Origin: Thermoguttaceae bacterium
GTDB taxonomy: Bacteria > Planctomycetota > Planctomycetia > Pirellulales > Thermoguttaceae
Direction: 5' to 3'
Length of the DNA stretch: 64,000 bases
Assembly (NCBI GenBank): GCA_025060325.1
Contig: JANXBW010000004.1
Coordinates: 124,001-188,000, forward strand
Numbering within the stretch: the stretch's first letter is position 1; each line of letters opens with the position of its first letter. Shown one piece after another: positions 11,491-32,266 of this stretch. The position numbers and the translations under genes are program-made. The notes under the pieces were generated by a model. It had not been told where the DNA came from and searched no databases. It worked only from the letters and a program-made list of their open reading frames with translations.

Positions 11491-12273
11491 ATGAGAAAAG
11501 CAGTCGCGCTTGTCGTCGGTATCGGCTTAGGTTTGGCGCTTGCGATCGGGCCGGCCGAAGAGGGCCGAGCCTTCTGGGGCTGGGGCGGTTGTGGCGGATG
11601 GTGGTGTGGTCCCCGGTGGGACGGTGGTTGTTGGTACCTTGGCATCAGACCGGGGCCAATCCGTAGGTTGCTTTTTGGGCCTTACCGCTGGTATTGGGTA
11701 CCCACGCACTGTCTGTGGACAATAAGCTCATGTTGCCTGGCGGATTGTTGTTGCGGAGGGGAGTGCCCGGTCGTTCATGAGCATCCGAAGCCACCAGCCC
11801 CGCGTCAACAGCCGACAGCGGCGCCCGTGGATCAACCACCGAAAGAAGGGGAGGTTCCAACCCCACAAGCACCTCCCGGTGCTCAGCAGGAAAGTGCCCC
11901 GGCCGGAATAATGCCGCTTCCCATGCCGGCAACACCGCAAGCAAATGCGCGGGGAGGGCAGGGGAGGGGAGGTGTGGCAAGCCGTGTGAACACTCGGACG
12001 GGTACAGCGGAAATCCGGCTGGTTGTCCCGTGGGAGGCTCGTGTCATCATTAACGGGCATCGCACGCGAAGTGCCGGTCCCGTGAGGCGCTATGTTTCTT
12101 TAGGCCTCGAGCCGGGGAAAGTTTATCGCTATACAATTCGCGTTGAGCTTTCCGATAAAGATCGGTCAGTTTTTCAAGAGCAAGATGTTTGGCTTGCCGC
12201 AGGTCAGGCCGTCGAACTTGCCGTGAGATTAACGCCGTCTGACAAGGGGCTTTTGGCATCTATGCGCCAGTGA
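11491..12273 (+). CDS. Exported TIGR03000-domain protein
   Basis: The 260-aa protein starts with a signal peptide (MRKAVALVVGIGLGLALAIG, cleavage near GRAF), then a Gly/Trp/Cys-rich segment and a long Pro/Gln-rich linker. Residues of about 175-255 match TIGR03000, a domain found almost only in planctomycetes: VPWEARVIINGHRTRSAG, then VRRYVSLGLEPGKVYRYTI and AGQAVELAVRL. The function of the domain is unknown. The ATG at 11491 is chosen because the signal peptide begins there. A KOPS-like cluster (11951-11968) lies in the linker, coding for Gly/Arg-rich sequence. It stands alone between oppositely oriented pdxA and asd. Confidence 0.85.
   Translation: MRKAVALVVGIGLGLALAIGPAEEGRAFWGWGGCGGWWCGPRWDGGCWYLGIRPGPIRRLLFGPYRWYWVPTHCLWTISSCCLADCCCGGECPVVHEHPKPPAPRQQPTAAPVDQPPKEGEVPTPQAPPGAQQESAPAGIMPLPMPATPQANARGGQGRGGVASRVNTRTGTAEIRLVVPWEARVIINGHRTRSAGPVRRYVSLGLEPGKVYRYTIRVELSDKDRSVFQEQDVWLAAGQAVELAVRLTPSDKGLLASMRQ
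11951..11968 (+). repeat. KOPS-like polar motif, three overlapping copies
   Basis: GGGGAGGG (11951), GGGCAGGG (11956) and GGGGAGGG (11961) overlap inside the linker of the TIGR03000 protein gene. They point toward 19.0 kb. The run of four G-tracts could also form a G-quadruplex. Confidence 0.6.
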
Positions 12274-13615: not shown

Positions 13616-14554
13616 ATGAAATGGTTTCGGTGCGTGCTGGCCTACGATGGTAGCGGCTTTGCGGGTTGGCAGCGTCAACCGGGCCAGAGGACTGTTGAAG
13701 GAGCGGTGGCCGAAGCGTTGGAAAAGATTTTCGGCCATCCTGTTGACATTTCCGCCGCAAGTCGCACGGACGCAGGAGTCCATGCCCTGGGGCAGGTCAT
13801 TGGCTTTGGGGTGGAGACGCGGTTAGCTCCGGAGCTCGTGCTAAGAGCCCTGAACTCCCGACTGCCGGAAGACGTCTGCGCGACGGTTGTTGAAGAGACT
13901 TTTCCTGGTTTTGATCCCCGCCGACACTCTTACGGAAAGCGCTATCGCTACTGGATCGGCGATGGGCCGGGGTGGAGTCCATTCCTCCGCCACTACCAAT
14001 GGCAGTGGAAGCGAGGAAGACTCGATTGCCATGCCATGCAGGAGGCAGCAAGATTGCTCCTGGGTACTCACGACTTTGCTTGTTTTCAAAACACGGGTTC
14101 GCCGCGGAGTTCCACCACGCGAACGCTTTACCAAGTCATCGTCGAACGGGTAGAACCGTCACGTTTTAGCGAGAACGTGCCACCTCAGAAGGGTAGGGTA
14201 GGGGAGGGGTTCTGGAGCTGGAACCGTGCGGAAGGACGTGAGGACTTAGGAGCGGAGGCTTTCCTTTCGCAGTTATGGTGTCGGGGTGGGGTGTTTATTT
14301 TGGTGGAGGGGGATGGCTTCCTTTATAACATGGTGCGATCAATCGTGGGCACCCTGGTGGAGGTCGGTCGCGGTGCTCGGCGACCGGAGTGGGTCGGGCA
14401 AGTCCTTGCTTCGCGTGATCGTCGCCAAGCAGGGCCTACTGCCCCTCCGTGGGGACTCTACTTAGAAAAAGTCTTTTGTTGCGATTCGATCGACGGTGGA
14501 ATCACAGTGCCGGCCAGCGGTACCACCCAGTTGCCGCCGCTTTCCACGGAATGA
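13616..14554 (+). CDS. truA: tRNA pseudouridine(38-40) synthase with lineage-specific insertion
   Basis: TruA converts U38-U40 of tRNA anticodon arms to pseudouridine. The catalytic Asp52 lies in SRTDAGVHALGQ, and FDPRRHSYGKRYRYWI and EGDGFLYNMVRSIVGTLVEVGRG are family blocks. At 312 aa it is longer than the usual 250-270. Residues of about 181-224 form an insertion between the RTLYQV strand and the GVFILVEGDGFLY strand, and a C-terminal tail of about 25 residues follows. The insertion contains KGRVGEG, encoded by a tandem array of the polar GGGTAGGG motif. Both halves of the active site look intact. Confidence 0.95.
   Translation: MKWFRCVLAYDGSGFAGWQRQPGQRTVEGAVAEALEKIFGHPVDISAASRTDAGVHALGQVIGFGVETRLAPELVLRALNSRLPEDVCATVVEETFPGFDPRRHSYGKRYRYWIGDGPGWSPFLRHYQWQWKRGRLDCHAMQEAARLLLGTHDFACFQNTGSPRSSTTRTLYQVIVERVEPSRFSENVPPQKGRVGEGFWSWNRAEGREDLGAEAFLSQLWCRGGVFILVEGDGFLYNMVRSIVGTLVEVGRGARRPEWVGQVLASRDRRQAGPTAPPWGLYLEKVFCCDSIDGGITVPASGTTQLPPLSTE
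14191..14208 (+). repeat. KOPS-like polar motif, three overlapping copies inside truA
   Basis: GGGTAGGG (14191), GGGTAGGG (14196) and GGGGAGGG (14201) overlap and point toward 19.0 kb. They lie within the part of truA encoding a non-conserved insertion. Four G-tracts with one- or two-base loops also make it a G-quadruplex candidate. Confidence 0.65.
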
Positions 14555-14713: not shown

Positions 14714-15898
14714 ATGCGAATCGCCCACATCATAACCCGGCTTATTATCGGCGGGGCACAGGAGAACACCCTCCTTTGCTGCGAAGATCTCATCAACCTT
14801 TTTGGCGAAGATGTGTTGCTTATCACTGGCCCGCCCCTGGGACCTGAAGGAAGTCTCGTTGACCGCGCCATCCGCAATCGTGTGCCGCTAAAGATCATCC
14901 CCTGGCTCCGGCGGGAGATTCATCCCTGGCGCGATCTCCGGAGCTACTGGGCAATTCGACGAGTGCTCCAGGTTTTTCGGCCAGATGTTGTTCACACACA
15001 TAGCGCCAAGGGGGGAATTTTGGGGCGCTTGGCGGCTTACCGCCTGCGAGTTCCTGTGATCGTCCACACAGTTCATGGGGCCCCTTTTCATCCGTATCAA
15101 CACTTTGTCGCGCGGGAATTTTGTCGGCTGGCTGAAGTTTGGGCCGCGCGGTATTGCGATATCTTTATCACCGTTGCAAACGCAATGAGGACCCTCTTGG
15201 TTCAGGGGTCAATTGCGCCTCCTGAAAAATGCATAACCATCTATAGCGGTATGGAAATTGAACCCTTTGTCAACTGTGGGACATACCGGCAGGAGACCCG
15301 TCGGAAGCTGGGATTTTCGGCGGACGAGGTAGTGGTGGGCAAAGTTGCCCGGCTTTTCCCGCTTAAAGGTCATGACGATGTGATCGAGGCGGCCGGCCCG
15401 GTTATAGCACAAAACCCTAAAGTCCGCTTTTTGTTCGTGGGGGGTGGGATCCTCGAAAATGATTTAAAGAAAAAAATCCAGGACAAAGGGTTGGCAGATT
15501 ATTTCGCGTTTACGGGCTTGATTCCCCCGGAGAAACTCCCTGCGGTGATAAGCGCGATGGATATTCTTGTGCATACCAGTTTGCGGGAAGGGCTGGCCCG
15601 GGTACTCCCCCAAGCTTTGCTGGCGGGAATACCCGTTATTAGTTACGACGTTGACGGGGCTCGCGAGGTGGTTATCCCGGAAAAGACAGGGATACTTCTT
15701 CCTGCTCGTGATGTCGCCGGGTTAGCCTCCGCAATCTTAAGATTGGCACAAGACCCTGCGATTCGTCGGCAATTTGGTGAGGCAGGCCGACTTTTGTGTC
15801 AGGAAATCTTTCCCCATGAGAAAATGACTCGCGAAATCCACGCTCTTTACTGTAAACTCCTCCGGAGTAAAGGGTACCGTGTGGACATGGTGGGGTAG
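14714..15898 (+). CDS. Glycosyltransferase family 4
   Basis: The 394-aa GT-B enzyme transfers a sugar from a nucleotide donor, probably for an envelope polysaccharide. The N-terminal domain has IITRLIIGGAQENTL and VVHTHSAKGGILGRLAA. The C-terminal donor domain has VGKVARLFPLKGHDDVIEA and TSLREGLARVLPQALLAGIPVISYDV. The family EX7E motif reads E-x7-Q here, the second Glu being replaced by Gln, as in some GT4 subgroups. The last codons and stop overlap a GGGTAGGG pair (15893-15905). The acceptor and donor cannot be predicted. Confidence 0.88.
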   Translation: MRIAHIITRLIIGGAQENTLLCCEDLINLFGEDVLLITGPPLGPEGSLVDRAIRNRVPLKIIPWLRREIHPWRDLRSYWAIRRVLQVFRPDVVHTHSAKGGILGRLAAYRLRVPVIVHTVHGAPFHPYQHFVAREFCRLAEVWAARYCDIFITVANAMRTLLVQGSIAPPEKCITIYSGMEIEPFVNCGTYRQETRRKLGFSADEVVVGKVARLFPLKGHDDVIEAAGPVIAQNPKVRFLFVGGGILENDLKKKIQDKGLADYFAFTGLIPPEKLPAVISAMDILVHTSLREGLARVLPQALLAGIPVISYDVDGAREVVIPEKTGILLPARDVAGLASAILRLAQDPAIRRQFGEAGRLLCQEIFPHEKMTREIHALYCKLLRSKGYRVDMVG

Positions 15899-15905
15899 GG
15901 TAGGG
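15893..15905 (+). repeat. KOPS-like polar motif, two overlapping copies
   Basis: GGGTAGGG at 15893 and at 15898 overlap the stop codon of the GT4 gene and point toward 19.0 kb. Confidence 0.6.
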
Positions 15906-17763: not shown

Positions 17764-18810
17764 ATGGCGGTAGGTGAAAGGCGACTTTCGTTCGAGCGGC
17801 CGATCGAGGAACTTCAAGCTCGTATTGCCAAGCTAGAGCGGCTAGCCCAGGAAGATCCCGAGGTGCGACAAGAACTTCAGCACCTCCGCCGCGAGCTGAT
17901 CGAGACATTAAGGCGGATCTATTCTTCGCTTACTCCGTGGGAGATTGTCGAGGTCGCTCGTCACCCCGATCGACCCATGACGAGTGATTATTTGGAACTA
18001 ACTTTCGATGAATTCGTGGAACTGCACGGGGACAAACTTTTCGGGGATGATCGGGCCATTCGCACTGGTTGGGCCAAGTTAGAAACCTTCAAGGTAATGG
18101 TCGTCGGTCATCAAAAGGGGAAAACCACCCAGGAACGGATTCAGTGTAATCACGGTTGTGCCCATCCCGAGGGTTACCGCAAGGCCATCGCGAAGATGCG
18201 ATTGGCGGCCAAGTTTCGTCTTCCGGTGATTTGTCTCATCGATACGCCTGGGGCTTACCCGGGGGTTGGCGCTGAGGAGCGGGGCCAGCATCAAGCTATC
18301 GCCGAGTCGATGTTTGTTATGTCGCGGTTGCCAACACCTATTATTTGCGTGGTAATTGGGGAGGGTGGGTCAGGAGGCGCCTTGGCCATTGGGGTGGGCG
18401 ATCGCGTAGCGATCCTTGAGTACGCGTATTATTCCGTTATTAGCCCCGAAGGGTGCGCGGGCATCCTGTGGAAAAGCGAGGACTACAAGCAACAGGCTGC
18501 CAACGTTCTCCGAATGACGGCAAAGGATTTGCTTCGGCTAGGTGTTGTGGATGACGTATTGCCGGAGCCGCTTGGAGGTGCGCATCGCGACCCGCATCAG
18601 ATGGCTACTACTTTGAAGCTGTATCTGCGATCGCAACTTCGTGAACTAACGGCGATCCCGATCGAGGAACTTCTGGAGCGGCGGTATCAAAGATTCCGGA
18701 AAATGGGGACGTACTTCGAGAAGGGGATGCTCGTCGGGCCGTGCCTTGAGCCTCAGGTTGCTCGCGAACAAGTGCCGGCCGCGCCCATCAGTACCGTTGA
18801 CGAAGTCTAA
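17764..18810 (+). CDS. accA: Acetyl-CoA carboxylase carboxyltransferase subunit alpha
   Basis: AccA with AccD transfers the carboxyl group from biotin on AccB to acetyl-CoA, giving malonyl-CoA for fatty acid synthesis. The 348-aa protein has the N-terminal helical region (RPIEELQARIAKLERLA), LTFDEFVELHGDKLFGDDRAI, NHGCAHPEGYRKA and the CoA-binding and oxyanion blocks DTPGAYPGVGAEERGQ and GEGGSGGALAIGVGD. The length is slightly above that of E. coli AccA (319 aa) because of a C-terminal tail. The gene converges on a cvpA-like gene across the spacer carrying the dif candidate. accD is not in the window. Confidence 0.97.
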   Translation: MAVGERRLSFERPIEELQARIAKLERLAQEDPEVRQELQHLRRELIETLRRIYSSLTPWEIVEVARHPDRPMTSDYLELTFDEFVELHGDKLFGDDRAIRTGWAKLETFKVMVVGHQKGKTTQERIQCNHGCAHPEGYRKAIAKMRLAAKFRLPVICLIDTPGAYPGVGAEERGQHQAIAESMFVMSRLPTPIICVVIGEGGSGGALAIGVGDRVAILEYAYYSVISPEGCAGILWKSEDYKQQAANVLRMTAKDLLRLGVVDDVLPEPLGGAHRDPHQMATTLKLYLRSQLRELTAIPIEELLERRYQRFRKMGTYFEKGMLVGPCLEPQVAREQVPAAPISTVDEV

Positions 18811-18885
18811 CTTTCCGAAGAAAAACTCGGCTGAAATCTCCGAGGCCAAACCGCAGGAAAACGGGGGCAGCAACAGTCGAGCCGA

Positions 18886-18893
18886 GGGCAGGG
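18886..18893 (+). repeat. KOPS-like polar motif nearest to dif on the left
   Basis: GGGCAGGG about 110 bp left of the dif candidate. It is the last plus-strand copy of the GGGCAGGG/GGGTAGGG form. Confidence 0.6.
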
Positions 18894-19002
18894 GTGGTTT
18901 ACCCGCAGGTAGGTGGTGCGCGAGCTTAATCTGTGCTTAAGACCCACGGGCGGTCTCGCTTGGCGACACTTAGGTTGCACGGCGAATTTGTGGGCCTCTC
19001 CA

Positions 19003-19030
19003 ACGTCCGATAATGTTTCTTATGTTCGGT
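19003..19030 (+). other. dif: Candidate dif site (XerCD chromosome dimer resolution site)
   Basis: The 28-bp site divides into an 11-bp XerC-side arm ACGTCCGATAA, a 6-bp centre TGTTTC and an 11-bp XerD-side arm TTATGTTCGGT. Against E. coli dif, 17 of 28 positions match. In the 17-bp core from ATAATG to TTATGTT, 15 match. The outer CCGA and TCGG keep partial dyad symmetry. It lies in a convergent intergenic region exactly where the polar GGGNAGGG motif changes strand, which is how dif and KOPS are arranged in E. coli. XerC, XerD and FtsK genes are not in the window. Binding and recombination are inferred. Confidence 0.8.
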
Positions 19031-19443
19031 CAGATCCCGAGTTTTCCCCGGGATTTGCCGGCCTTGCTAGTCGGCCTTGTCTTCGGGCTCGGCCAAACCA
19101 GTACGTGCGATCTTTCGTTCGCTTGTCGGTGCCGAAAAGAGTTTTCCCGGCAGCCTGTGTTTTCCCTTCACAAGAGGCTGGGGCGGCCATCAACGAAGCC
19201 AGCGAAAGCACCGAACCGAGATCACGCGGCTAACCGCCTGTGCCCGCCCCGGCAAGCGCTTGCCGCCCGTCGCAAACGGCGCCAACCAGTCCTTGAGGGA
19301 CGGGAGGTTTTGCTTACAGATCAACAAGCGTCGTTAACGAGAAGCTGAGCCGCGGCTTTGATGCCAAACGCGGTAGGCAACCGAAGCGTGTTTCTTACAC
19401 CCAACTCGCGTCCGTTCGTCACAACGAAGCCCGAGCGGGCAGG

Positions 19444-20010
19444 TCAGCTTTCGGGAAGTTGTGAAGACGCTTCTTCGCTGCTGGTGTGAAAATCGAGTTC
19501 GGCCTCAAACTCGTCGAGGTAGCTTTTTAACGCACTGTGCACTTCTGGCGGAAGTGAAGACCTCGCCCAAACTATGCCTTTAGCCAACAGGCGTCCGCTT
19601 GTCGAGCGGAGCACCCACTCTCGGGTTGTCTCGGTTAGGGTTACACCGAAAAAAGTCAGCACCACACAAATCGCAAGTCCCTTAAGTAGCCCGAAGAGTG
19701 CCCCCAATTGCCTATCGAATTCTTGAAGCTTTAAGCGGTCGATAAATTCGCGGATGGCACGGAAAACAAGCCAGATTCCAAGCGAGGTCAAAAGAAATAT
19801 CACAAACATCGCAAAAAACTGGTTCCAAGGCGCCGTGCTCCCAAACAGAGGAGCCAGGTAGTTGCCCCAACGTATGGCTGCTACGGCGCTTCCCACCAAA
19901 GCAACTAGCCAAGCTAATTGCCAAACAAAACCACGCACGGCGCCCATTAGTAATCCGCCAAGGAGCAGCACAAGAACGACAACGTCAAACACTTCCAGTT
20001 GCTGACCCAT
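19444..20010 (-). CDS. CvpA-family membrane protein
   Basis: The 188-aa protein has four predicted membrane helices: VVVLVLLLGGLLMGAVRGF, then WLVALVGSAVAAIRWG, FFAMFVIFLLTSLGIWLVF and LGALFGLLKGLAICVVLTFFGV. This is the CvpA (colicin V production) pattern, including the R-G-F after helix 1. CvpA-like proteins affect envelope integrity, but their biochemical role is unknown. A GGAG nine bases upstream supports the ATG at 20010 over an extended start at 20064. The C-terminal 50 residues are charged and cytoplasmic. It lies 103 bp downstream of dtd and may be co-transcribed with it. Confidence 0.85.
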   Translation of the reverse strand: MGQQLEVFDVVVLVLLLGGLLMGAVRGFVWQLAWLVALVGSAVAAIRWGNYLAPLFGSTAPWNQFFAMFVIFLLTSLGIWLVFRAIREFIDRLKLQEFDRQLGALFGLLKGLAICVVLTFFGVTLTETTREWVLRSTSGRLLAKGIVWARSSLPPEVHSALKSYLDEFEAELDFHTSSEEASSQLPES

Positions 20011-20113
20011 GGAAGCTCTCCGTTGTTGACAGGGGATATCCCCAAGTCGCCCACTTGAGAACATTCACAACTGGATACTCCCCGAAAGGCAAGCCACCGC
20101 AACTTGGGTACAG

Positions 20114-20560
20114 CTAAAGTTCTTTGCTATCAAGCCAGATGGTCACAGGTCCGTCGTTTACGAGTTCCACCAGCATATGTTCACGGAAGCGGCCGGTCGC
20201 TACCGGTATTCCCTTAGTCTTGATATAGTTGACGAAATATTCGTAAAGGGCTTGGGCTTTCTCAGGAGCAGCGGCACCGACAAAGCTCGGACGACGACCC
20301 TTCCGACAGTCGGCAAAAAGTGTAAACTGACTTACCACCAAAACTGACCCGCCAACGTCGGCCAGCGCTAGATTCATTTTGCCCGCACTATCTTCGAAGA
20401 TCCGCAGGCCGATTGTCTTCTCAGCCAATTTCACGGCATCTTCCTCAGTATCATCCTGTCCGACGCCAAGCAGCACAACAAATCCACGGCCGATCGTGCC
20501 CACGATTTGTCCATCCACAGTTACCGTGGCCCGCGAAACGCGTTGGATACAGGCACGCAT
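20114..20560 (-). CDS. dtd: D-aminoacyl-tRNA deacylase
   Basis: Dtd hydrolyses D-amino acids (and glycine mischarged on tRNA-Ala) from tRNA, a proofreading role in the cytoplasm. The 148-aa protein has the exact family length and motifs: [17 protein letters not shown] at the N-terminus, the active-site [17 protein letters not shown], and [11 protein letters not shown] at the C-terminus, which carries the cross-subunit Gly-Pro motif. Cys in the [10 protein letters not shown] block replaces the more common Thr (ADTRKGRRP). It probably forms a small unit with the cvpA-like gene. Confidence 0.96.
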
Positions 20561-23107: not shown

Positions 23108-24799
23108 ATGGCTCGAACCTGTTCTCACATCGCCATAGTTGTTCTCATCGGGATCCCCTTGGGGTTCGGAGCTTTAGGGCTTTCGGGATGCTCCATGCTC
23201 GCGCCGACCCGGAGGCTCGAACCCCGACAAACAGGGGGCGCAACCACACCGGGAAATGAGCCATCGGAAACTCTGAATCCTTCCTCGGTTTCTGGCCACC
23301 AGAGCCTTCCACAGATCGCAGTTCCTCAAGACCCCGGGTACTCAGCCAGGGTCACGCTCTCGGGTGAGAATCGTTGGCCGGAGGGTCGCAGCGACCTCCG
23401 TACCCCTGCCGGGGTAGCAAACCTTTCGGGAATCGGGGGAAATAGGGCTGGGGAGGTAGGCGGCAGCCTGCAGTCCGCAGGGGATATCCAAGGCATCGAA
23501 TCGGAACTGAGCGCCCTTCCCCTGCCGGAAAATGTTCGCTCCCGGTTGCTTGAGGTGTTTGCCCAAACGGACCCCGCGATCCGGCCACTCTTACTAGCTC
23601 AGACTTATTTGTTCTGCCAGCTCACTGGAGGCGTTCCCCCTCCCCTGCCCTGCCCTTCCCTACCGGCGCAAGCTGAGTCAATAGCGACTGAATCCTCGCC
23701 ACAACTCCGTTTGGATAGGCCTTCAAACCGGCAGGGCGTGACGAGCATTGCGGATTCGAGGTCCCCCAGCTTGCCTTCGCAAATGCCCGGCACCGGCTCA
23801 GGGCGTTCTAACGGTACTGGGCGCGGTGACCTCATTCCGGCGGGAAACTGCAACGGGACGCATGAGGTTCAGGAAGCAATTCCGAGAGCTCTGGATCCTC
23901 AGGGTGCCGAGTCGAGCGTCATCCCCGCAGAGTATTTGCCCGATGGGAGGAGTCCTCCGCTTGCCACCCCGTCTGTCGTCGCCTCGCCGGTGGCCGGTCG
24001 CGAGCCTATCACGGATAACCTGCCCAGCCGAATTCCCCCACCCCCATCGTCAGAGCGTCAGCCGGAATCGCCAGGTCCGCATTCCGATTGGCGAGACCAC
24101 CTTCTTGAGGCCGTTACTGCTTTGGAAAAACAAGTAGGAGAAGCCCAAGAACCTGAGGATGTGGAAGCTCTAGCCGCCAAATTAAGACTTCTGAAATTGG
24201 CGGCCGGACTCAGGGATGACGCTCTCGAGACCCCTCGGGGCCGCAGCGACCCCCTAGCCGATTACTGGGCCAAACAGGTTTTCGCCCTCTGGCTCCTGAC
24301 CGACGCAAGAATGGTTAGCAACCGGGAAGCTAGACTCAGAGAGGCGGCCGAGCGCCTAGACGAGGCTGTGAGTGCTCTCCGGGAACAGTGTCCGCTTATT
24401 GTCCGCAATCTTGCCTTCGTCACCGACGTTCAGAGTTACGGAGTCTTCACGCCATTTGAACGGTACGAATTCGTTCCTGGGCAGCGTCTCCTGCTATATG
24501 CGGAGGTCGAAAATCTTCAGAGTCTGCCCACCCCGAAGGGTTACCACAGCAAATCCCGGGCTCACATCGAGATTACGGAGTATCAGGGCAAGTGCGTAGG
24601 GGAAAGGTCTTTCGCCCCGACCGAGGAGTATTGTCGCAACCGGCGGCGAGACTTCTTTCTGGGTTTCGAATTCGACCTCCCCAGCGACCTGACACCGGGC
24701 CGATACTACCTTGAACTGAAAATCACCGACCTCCACTCAGGAAAGGTTGGCCGCTCAACAGTGGAATTTACCGTAATCCTCCCAAAATCCTCACAGTAA
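23108..24799 (+). CDS. Large planctomycete lipoprotein, function unknown
   Basis: The 563-aa protein has a lipoprotein signal with lipobox LSGC (Cys28). About 280 residues of Pro/Ser/Gly-rich linker follow. A helical segment comes next (about 330-420, LLEAVTALEKQVGEAQEPEDVEALAAKLRLLKL and similar heptads), with a conserved-looking C-terminal beta-rich domain (FERYEFVPGQRLLLYAEVENL, FEFDLPSDLTPGRYYLELKITDL). I do not know a named family for it, though proteins with this C-terminus seem typical of planctomycetes. Four overlapping KOPS-like motifs lie in the linker (23638-23660), coding for VPPPLPCPSLP. Confidence 0.8.
   Translation: MARTCSHIAIVVLIGIPLGFGALGLSGCSMLAPTRRLEPRQTGGATTPGNEPSETLNPSSVSGHQSLPQIAVPQDPGYSARVTLSGENRWPEGRSDLRTPAGVANLSGIGGNRAGEVGGSLQSAGDIQGIESELSALPLPENVRSRLLEVFAQTDPAIRPLLLAQTYLFCQLTGGVPPPLPCPSLPAQAESIATESSPQLRLDRPSNRQGVTSIADSRSPSLPSQMPGTGSGRSNGTGRGDLIPAGNCNGTHEVQEAIPRALDPQGAESSVIPAEYLPDGRSPPLATPSVVASPVAGREPITDNLPSRIPPPPSSERQPESPGPHSDWRDHLLEAVTALEKQVGEAQEPEDVEALAAKLRLLKLAAGLRDDALETPRGRSDPLADYWAKQVFALWLLTDARMVSNREARLREAAERLDEAVSALREQCPLIVRNLAFVTDVQSYGVFTPFERYEFVPGQRLLLYAEVENLQSLPTPKGYHSKSRAHIEITEYQGKCVGERSFAPTEEYCRNRRRDFFLGFEFDLPSDLTPGRYYLELKITDLHSGKVGRSTVEFTVILPKSSQ
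23638..23660 (-). repeat. KOPS-like polar motif, four overlapping copies
   Basis: On the plus strand CCCTCCCC (23638), CCCTGCCC (23643), CCCTGCCC (23648) and CCCTTCCC (23653) overlap. This is the largest array in the window. It is in the opposite orientation to the copies left of 19.0 kb, so it also points at dif. Another copy, CCCTTCCC, lies at 23514. Confidence 0.65.
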
Positions 24800-29091: not shown

Positions 29092-30663
29092 TTATGCTGC
29101 CGCAGGGAATGGGAGAATCGTCGGTTCGTTCTCCGGTGGCATTTCGGTGGCTGGTGCTTTGGGCGACTTTTCTACGTAATTCCTACCCAAGCGAATAACT
29201 GGCCGACAGGCCAAAATTGGGGCGGTCATTATTCGTCCGCCGTAGAGTTCGACGACCTGCCAGCCAATTGTTGCATCCCAGGCGGCCTCGATTCCTTTGA
29301 CAACCACTTGTGGACGAAGTAGATTGAGCACGTCGCTGAAACCTAAGTCCTCCGCAAGCACCACTAAGTCGACACAATCCAAAGCAGCCACCATTGCCGC
29401 CCTTTCCGCTTGGCAAACAAGCCCCCCTGCCCTGCCCCGAGCGTCCCGTAAGCACCGATCGCTCCTTACGCCGACGATGAGACAGTCACCCAAGCTTTTT
29501 GCCCATTCCAGTGCAGAGACCTGGCCAGGTTGGAGGACCTCGAAGTTGCCGCCGGCAAACACAACTCGCTTACCTTGAAGCAGCCCCTGGGCCAGGTACT
29601 GCGAAAGCTCCGACAGGCTGAGCACTTTTCCATGGCAGGGGGACTGGGCGTCGCGCAGAATGGACTGGAGGTCCCGCCGTGTTATTTGCCAACGAGTGCC
29701 CGGTGGCAAAAGTTCATGCTGCCTGCTCTTGATGGCGCGAGTAAGCTGGTAAAGCTCCCAGGCAAGACGCCACTCACCCCCTAGGGCGTAAACAAAAGCT
29801 GAGAGCGCCAAGACTTCCGGCAAACAGTCATCGGTGATAATGGTCCCCGACGGATCCGCCGCGCTTTGAGCACCGTCTTTCTCGGGAGTAACGCACACAG
29901 CTCCTTGCGGATAATCCCAAATCACTAAAGCCTGGATTCCGTTTTGCTGCGCTAGTTTAGCGGCAGTTGACAAATCGACTTGCGGGTGGGCGCTAGGTTG
30001 GCCGGCAGACGCACCAAAGGCCGCACATTCCACAAACACACAGTGCGAGCCACTATAAAGCGACCAATCCGAATTTTTTGGAATGGCCGCGACCACGTGG
30101 CCACCCCGAGTAAGAGTTTCGTTGACAAGTTGTCGCAGATGTTCAGGCAGCAGGAGTTGTTGATGGCCGGGTAGAAGCAGGATGGTCGCCCTCTCCTCAA
30201 GAAACGACCACACTTTGCGGACAGCAGCCAGGGAGGTCGCGGGGCGAGCCTGGGCGGAGTATCCCTGCCAGTCAGCCCGGAGAAGTTGGGCAAAGTTCGC
30301 AGAGGCGGCCCGACCCAAGAACCGCATGACCACCCGTGTCTGGTACTCCGCATCGGTAATTAAGCCTGCCGTGCTAATGTCCTGAGAGTCAAGCAACCGC
30401 CGCACAAAGCGTGCCTCCTCGGTTTGCCCCAACAGTGCGACGGGCAGTCCCCAAGCACCAAGGGCGGTCAAAGAGGCGGCTACCTCCCCTGCCCCGCCGA
30501 GTTGGATTTCCTCGCTGACAACCTCGAGCACCGGCACCGGGGCTTCCGGGGCAATTTGGCGGACAAGCCCCAGGACCTCGTGCCGGAGGAATAGTTCCCC
30601 AAAAACCAAGATCTTAGGGCACAATCCCTGTGCCAAGAGTTGACGAAGAGCTTCCCGATGCAT
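29092..30663 (-). CDS. Degenerate HldE/RfaE-like bifunctional protein (probable pseudo-enzyme)
   Basis: The 523-aa protein has the two-domain layout of HldE: a PfkB-type sugar kinase and a nucleotidyltransferase, which together make ADP-heptose. The overall match is clear at the C-terminus (LGDCLIVGVRSDRCLRD, CQAERAAMVAALDCVDLVV, LRPQVVVKGIEAAWD). However, the nucleotide-binding H-x-G-H motif, normally HPGH, reads QPGQ (FEVLQPGQVSALEWA). The kinase anion-hole motif GAGD is replaced by a region reading TIITDDCLPE. Both activities are therefore doubtful. The start at 30663 has GGGAG nine bases upstream. Two motif clusters (29425, 30487) lie inside the gene. It sits between gmhA and the heptosyltransferase. 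Confidence 0.8.
   Translation of the reverse strand: MHREALRQLLAQGLCPKILVFGELFLRHEVLGLVRQIAPEAPVPVLEVVSEEIQLGGAGEVAASLTALGAWGLPVALLGQTEEARFVRRLLDSQDISTAGLITDAEYQTRVVMRFLGRAASANFAQLLRADWQGYSAQARPATSLAAVRKVWSFLEERATILLLPGHQQLLLPEHLRQLVNETLTRGGHVVAAIPKNSDWSLYSGSHCVFVECAAFGASAGQPSAHPQVDLSTAAKLAQQNGIQALVIWDYPQGAVCVTPEKDGAQSAADPSGTIITDDCLPEVLALSAFVYALGGEWRLAWELYQLTRAIKSRQHELLPPGTRWQITRRDLQSILRDAQSPCHGKVLSLSELSQYLAQGLLQGKRVVFAGGNFEVLQPGQVSALEWAKSLGDCLIVGVRSDRCLRDARGRAGGLVCQAERAAMVAALDCVDLVVLAEDLGFSDVLNLLRPQVVVKGIEAAWDATIGWQVVELYGGRIMTAPILACRPVIRLGRNYVEKSPKAPATEMPPENEPTILPFPAAA
29425..29437 (-). repeat. KOPS-like polar motif, two overlapping copies
   Basis: CCCTGCCC at 29425 and 29430 inside the hldE-like gene (coding for ARGRAGG), pointing left toward dif. 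Confidence 0.6.
30487..30494 (-). repeat. KOPS-like polar motif
   Basis: CCCTGCCC in the N-terminal part of the hldE-like gene, pointing left toward dif. Confidence 0.55.
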
Positions 30664-31473: not shown

Positions 31474-31486
31474 CCCTCCCCTGCCC
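31474..31486 (-). repeat. KOPS-like polar motif, two overlapping copies
   Basis: CCCTCCCC (31474) and CCCTGCCC (31479) upstream of gmhA, pointing left toward dif. Confidence 0.6.
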
Positions 31487-32253: not shown

Positions 32254-32266
32254 CCCTCCCCTGCCC
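32254..32266 (-). repeat. KOPS-like polar motif, two overlapping copies
   Basis: CCCTCCCC (32254) and CCCTGCCC (32259) just beyond the priA stop codon, pointing left toward dif. Confidence 0.6.

Follow-up and report, generated by a model that had tools for sequence, protein, structure and literature searches.

A probable chromosomal dif site at the convergence of KOPS-like motifs in Thermoguttaceae and related planctomycetes

A 28-bp sequence beside accA in a Thermoguttaceae genome is very probably a chromosomal dif site, at which XerC and XerD would recombine sister copies brought together by FtsK moving along GGGNAGGG motifs (KOPS). The sequence data supply the candidate site, its conservation, its near-uniqueness, the convergence of motifs upon it and the predicted genes for XerC, XerD and the FtsK gamma domain; binding, recombination and the loading and activation of FtsK we infer from the E. 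coli and Vibrio systems. By that analogy, XerC and XerD would bind the two 11-bp arms, and sister dif copies would be recombined within the 6-bp centre, converting a chromosome dimer into two monomers before division. The gamma domain would load FtsK onto GGGNAGGG, and FtsK would pump DNA toward the site from either side, so that sister dif sites would meet where the motif polarity converges.

A dif-like site and converging motifs

The site has the architecture of dif. The window, the whole 64-kb stretch of DNA that we analysed (C44:124001-188000), belongs to a draft genome of 4,777,664 bases in 89 contigs that is 95.57% complete. The first-pass annotation had proposed a 28-bp dif-like site at 19003-19030, and the sequence read there, ACGTCCGATAATGTTTCTTATGTTCGGT, has two 11-bp arms, partial dyad symmetry and a 6-bp centre. 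The site, its parts and its neighbours are as follows.

19003-19030, plus strand: predicted dif site of 28 bp, ACGTCCGATAA TGTTTC TTATGTTCGGT, recognised by its core match and its relatives
19003-19013, plus strand: left 11-bp arm, ACGTCCGATAA, the XerC side by analogy with E. coli
19014-19019, plus strand: central hexamer, TGTTTC, the variable part among relatives' sites
19020-19030, plus strand: right 11-bp arm, TTATGTTCGGT, the XerD side by analogy with E. coli, with less constant outer bases
17764-18810, plus strand: accA, acetyl-CoA carboxylase carboxyltransferase alpha (TIGR00513 above cut-off)
19444-20064, minus strand: CvpA-like protein, convergent neighbour (NF008100 at 20.9 bits, far below cut-off)
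20114-20560, minus strand: D-aminoacyl-tRNA deacylase (dtd), often close to the site in relatives

Sequence comparisons within the window and the draft genome single out this site. Compared with the core of E. coli dif, its inner 17 bases have two mismatches, which agrees with the 15 of 17 identities claimed earlier. Over its full length the 28-mer is identical to E. coli dif at 17 of 28 bases, and 6 of 11 arm positions are palindromic, the same number as in E. coli. Nothing else in the window matches the dif core with three or fewer mismatches; among 100 dinucleotide-shuffled windows, 3 held one or more matches of that quality. A search for a better dif elsewhere in the 4.78-Mb draft found none: the next best candidate was one further match with three mismatches, at C44:212127, and the window site is the sole match to ATAATGTNTNTTATGTT with at most one mismatch. 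The convergent gap said to hold the site, between accA and a cvpA-like gene, is real and spans 18811-19443, with a weak family match for CvpA.

Copies of GGGNAGGG point toward the site from both sides. To its left in the window, 16 lie on the plus strand and 4 on the minus strand, and to its right 1 and 16, respectively. Their total of 37 compares with 18.4 expected and was reached by no shuffle. The strand switch that had been claimed for this motif is strong in the window, and the following overlapping arrays and pairs take part in it.

11951-11968, plus strand: overlapping KOPS-like GGGNAGGG array, pointing to dif
14191-14208, plus strand: overlapping KOPS-like array, pointing to dif
15893-15905, plus strand: overlapping KOPS-like pair, pointing to dif
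18886-18893, plus strand: KOPS-like GGGCAGGG, the closest to dif on the left
23638-23660, minus strand: overlapping KOPS-like array, pointing back to dif
29425-29437, minus strand: overlapping KOPS-like pair, pointing back to dif
31474-31486, minus strand: overlapping KOPS-like pair, pointing back to dif
32254-32266, minus strand: overlapping KOPS-like pair, pointing back to dif

The same polarity recurs in relatives and is independent of gene orientation. Across 15 genomes, 307 copies of GGGNAGGG within 20 kb of the site point toward it and 32 away. Split by place, with gene strands taken from a simple longest-reading-frame picker, the toward-to-away counts were 105:12 in sense, 115:7 in antisense and 87:13 in intergenic positions, and coding bases near the site in these genomes were balanced (241 kb toward versus 258 kb away). 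Composition-matched control octamers that do not overlap the motif were not significantly polar (GGGACGGG, 13:6; GGACGGGG, 6:11; GGGGACGG, 12:11). Those sharing motif sequence were polar, less strongly (GGGANGGG, 110:45; GGNGAGGG, 93:42; GGGGANGG, 105:47).

Ranking octamers by polarity brought the KOPS-like motif to the top. When five genomes were pooled over up to 100 kb per side, GGGCAGGG came first with 94 copies to 6; taken genome by genome, it was first in the source genome, G026 and G053, fifth in G001 and thirteenth in G063. It was also the top octamer (145 to 10) in a pool of ten further genomes outside that first ranking, scored within 20 kb of the site, or less at two contig ends. 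The overlapping form GGGNAGGGNAGGG occurred 37 times toward the site and never away from it in the five genomes. Near the site, out to 20 kb, these five genomes carry the motif at 0.35 to 1.0 per kb; at greater distances the density is 0.1 to 0.3. Genome-wide, GGGNAGGG showed no over-representation, with 1084 copies versus 1129 for the backwards pattern.

The polarity switch lies at or near the site in every genome surveyed. All 15 genomes have it nearby; the peak interval includes the site in ten of them and lies 1.2 to 3.5 kb from it in the remaining five. Tested against random points, position gave fractions of 0.067 to 0.333 in the ten stretches of 37 to 40 kb, a weak result, and of 0.013 to 0.050 in the five stretches of at least 200 kb, a moderate one; it is therefore the polarity counts, and their recurrence, that carry the case. 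G026, a genome of the same family in one contig of 4,810,751 bases, sampled as 50 stretches of 20 kb, extends the pattern to chromosome scale: its cumulative GRGNAGGG count climbs up to dif, descends until about 3.1 Mb and is flat after, with the peak less than 5 kb from dif. With 100 kb on each side of dif removed, GGGNAGGG counts were 35:21 on the left and 14:33 on the right (Fisher p 0.0014).

Conservation and genomic context

Close relatives carry the same site. We searched for the core pattern ATAATGTNTNTTATGTT with at most one mismatch and used the pattern read backwards as control. Of 80 genomes from the order, the source genome included, 71 had the core (59 without mismatch and 12 with one), and the control matched in 12 of the 80. 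Copy number was one in 59 of the 71 core-positive genomes and higher in 12; the one-mismatch matches of two of the 71, G011 and G031, are possibly due to chance. Looser patterns, applied to genomes without a core match, recovered sites with intact inner arms and an altered centre in 5 of 24 genomes in one run and 12 of 19 in another, with no control matches in either. Centre variants in G054, G071, G019 and G059 bring the order to 75 of 80, again including the source genome. Five genomes that are 68 to 91% complete (G003, G005, G013, G046 and G075) yielded no site even with variants.

Conservation extends through the class. A draw of 393 genomes from the phylum contained the core in 202, and we tallied these by kinship by hand from the table. 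From the source genome out to its order, 33 of 40 genomes matched (controls 1 of 40), becoming 40 of 40 once variants were counted. The corresponding numbers for the class were 49 of 59 (controls 9 of 59) and 57 of 59, with G365 and G392 still lacking a site after variants; this tally counts G339 on two one-mismatch sites and G424 on three sites. We set aside the matches beyond the class (120 of 294) as support because controls often matched in that group. Many genomes of a different family in the phylum, f53, carry ATAATATATATTATGTT, among them G283, G309 and G192; this is perhaps that family's own dif variant. A scan of named genomes for ACGTCCGATAATGTNTNTTATGT returned at least 117 stretches; among 80 listed matches, 72 bore planctomycete names and 8 bore others, such as Omnitrophota, Dadabacteria and Bacillota.

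Variation within the site falls mainly in its centre. Variant sites have unchanged inner arms and an altered centre, which on comparison of the sequences is the pattern expected of a Xer site. The bases flanking the 28-mer vary freely across 30 loci. In the 30 sites extracted, 1 of 210 cells deviated in the left arm (seven positions outside the search pattern) and 8 of 120 in the right arm (positions 25-28). At these positions outside the search pattern the left arm thus varies less, unlike the rule reported by Kono et al. 2011, in which the XerC arm was more variable in all phyla covered (PMC3025954).

An integrated phage or plasmid of the Xer type could leave an attachment scar that resembles dif, and we consider this origin very unlikely for the window site. 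Xer-using mobile elements carry dif-like sites, and the arms seen here do occur on ten viral contigs, which shows that mobile elements carry such sites. Unlike those copies, the window site is chromosomal, has the recurring neighbours accA and a cvpA-like gene and lies at a motif convergence found in all 15 genomes. It is also mostly single-copy per genome and has no second copy in the window.

The neighbourhood recurs, with informative exceptions. We surveyed 15 genomes, over up to 60 kb per side in five and about 20 kb in ten. accA lies less than 1 kb from the site in 14 of the 15, to the left in 13 and to the right in G053; in G009 it sits on the opposite side, at 6.3 kb. In 12 of 15 genomes a cvpA homologue comes within 1 kb of the site, across from accA in 11 of these 12. 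The distance to cvpA is 9.5 kb in G076 and 17.4 kb in G060, and no homologue was found in the flanking DNA examined of G066. Among the named loci, at least 117 in number, 43 have accA to the left and cvpA to the right, and 31 have neither in the flanking DNA examined. In G053 (G053:C1:2049540) the site is inverted with respect to accA as well as cvpA, and the motif convergence is unchanged, which suggests that the orientation of dif itself is free.

These exceptions bear on a second alternative, that the 28-mer is a conserved non-coding element of accA or cvpA, such as a terminator or a regulatory site, and is similar to dif by coincidence. Common ancestry of the neighbourhood might preserve such a sequence, given how regularly accA lies within 1 kb. 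Yet the site stays constant while its neighbours shift in G009, G076, G060 and G066 or are flipped in G053, its flanks vary freely at the 30 loci, and the motif polarity switches near it in all 15 genomes. Because it keeps to the motif switch where neighbours have moved or inverted, the site is more than a piece of the accA region, and we regard an accA or cvpA element as still less likely than a mobile-element scar.

Terminus and origin

KOPS polarity, instead of GC skew, marks the site. The skew is weak, with no consistent switch at the site in contig C44 of the source genome, nor within 100 kb of it in four other genomes. Across the 50 sampled stretches of G026, three arcs had skews of 0.022, 0.018 and 0.007, and dif coincided with no switch. 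The GC-skew test is therefore uninformative here. The earlier claim that the site marks the chromosome terminus holds in that FtsK guide sequences converge there; it should be read as that convergence and not as the point where replication forks meet.

The weakness of the skew also bears on the least tenable alternative. G-rich motifs track skew in many bacteria, which, with the dif-core matches in about 3 of 100 shuffled windows and the polarity of motif-sharing octamers such as GGGANGGG, would count for a chance resemblance combined with a GGGNAGGG polarity born of strand composition or gene orientation, but the comparative data refute this for practical purposes: the site is conserved across genomes, a weak skew without a switch speaks against strand composition, and the polarity is independent of gene strand where coding bases are balanced.

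Positions of dnaA give a mixed picture of the origin. Motif polarity in G026 fades between about 3.1 and 4.8 Mb, and the antipode of dif (4.27 Mb) falls inside that zone. The best dnaA match of this genome is about 183 kb from dif (G026:C1:2045204-2045665 and G026:C1:1862426), and a second, weaker DnaA-like match sits at the record end; a placement of dif opposite a dnaA-linked origin was not seen in G026. In G063 the best dnaA match is about 488 kb from dif (G063:C10:3624264 and 3136221), and in G053, a genome of 6.65 Mb, dnaA is 1.85 Mb away. dnaA may lie away from the origin in G026 and G063.

Recombinases and translocase

The predicted protein partners are encoded. The two top-scoring Xer proteins of the source genome pass NCBIfam equivalog cut-offs, one as XerC (351 bits against 335) and one as XerD (344 against 330). 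The FtsK gamma domain (PF09397) was above cut-off in all five genomes, and also in 8 of 14 control genomes. It aligns with FtsK gamma of 2ve8/2ve9 (E 2.9e-11), which we take to be KOPS-bound FtsK gamma structures. The FtsK reading frame of the source genome continues beyond the gamma domain for about 119 residues as a proline-rich tail; the tail is 131 residues in G001 and 65 in G026.

The residues expected to read KOPS are partly kept, and those expected to contact XerD are mostly not. The KOPS-reading residues reported for FtsK gamma, in E. coli numbering, are N1296, R1300 and E1303 (PMC2533119). Read by eye, R1300 is kept in all five genomes and, unlike in E. coli, position 1303 is aspartate and 1296 glycine. 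Reported E. coli FtsK-XerD contacts comprise an R1289-E184 salt bridge and its neighbours (PMC5052618, Table 1). With E. coli numbering transferred through our alignment, FtsK Q1288 and R1289 and an acidic residue at XerD 119 are kept in five of five genomes. Position 184 of XerD, glutamate in E. coli, is instead R, R, R, R and K in the five; XerD Q123, Y187 and W188 are replaced in all of them, as is FtsK R1292, by glycine. Judged by these alignments, the E. coli-type activation contacts of FtsK gamma on XerD are mostly not kept: the guide motif is retained, and most activation contacts are not.

One doubtful but conceivable extension is that FtsK still drives chromosomes to dif with a rewired FtsK-recombinase switch. 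The charge reversal at the XerD salt-bridge position, the loss of the matching FtsK contacts and a left dif arm more conserved than the right would fit such a change. FtsK might then activate by way of new contacts, or by acting on XerC first, and such a step might partly explain the apparent essentiality of ftsK in a planctomycete.

Relation to known systems

The system is of a known kind, and its planctomycete member appears to be undescribed within the literature searched. Searches over partial listings, with subscription journals mostly outside their coverage, found no paper on planctomycete dif or KOPS. Kono et al. 2011 reported dif predictions in 16 phyla and a failed prediction for Cyanobacteria and Planctomycetes (PMC3025954). 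Like the sites they report, the one here is a 28-mer with an inner palindrome, usually one per chromosome. With dif of E. coli and Vibrio cholerae it shares the 11-6-11 layout, TTATGTT in the right arm and genes for XerC, XerD and FtsK gamma, and the polar motif found here, GGGNAGGG, is the one that serves as KOPS in E. coli and Vibrio; in V. cholerae, KOPS GGGNAGGG and GGGCAGGG are reported to be strongly polar (PMC2533119). It differs in its left arm, which is ACGTCCGATAA here and the proteobacterial arm in E. coli and V. cholerae, and in a GC skew that is weak and does not switch consistently at dif.

Weak skew makes these genomes useful. GC skew commonly serves to locate the terminus; in the five examined, where it is weak and uninformative, the site and its KOPS motifs offer a usable landmark. 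Given so weak a skew, strand composition is unlikely to have produced the KOPS polarity of these genomes, which makes them a useful case.

The site and its motifs also bear on division without FtsZ. FtsZ is reported absent from the phylum (PMC6952346), and FtsK is reported conserved across it (PMC6952346, PMC10632474). Reports on Planctopirus limnophila describe ftsI, ftsW and mreB as deletable and ftsK as apparently essential (PMC6952346, PMC10632474). The conserved KOPS and dif sequences suggest that pumping DNA toward dif is a job that FtsK has retained in this class.

Some genomes and viruses carry unusual dif-like copies. G424 has three dif-like sites with differing centres, on contigs C2, C68 and C136, and in G339 two sites, each with a single mismatch, face opposite ways with about 50 bp between them (G339:C1:4500923-4500997); these are possibly mobile Xer modules or inversions. 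Viral contigs with dif copies may represent phages that use host XerCD. A PHROGs search with two reading frames beside the copy on viral contig L350 gave no match. On viral contigs L346 and L348, a dif copy with planctomycete-type arms accompanies a terminase large subunit (phrog_38). Phage contig L353, of 5,577 bases, encodes a major head protein (phrog_514); a dif site lies close to one of its ends and a degenerate dif-like site close to the other (positions 154 and 5272), an arrangement that, from its sequence, is as expected for a phage integrated at dif.
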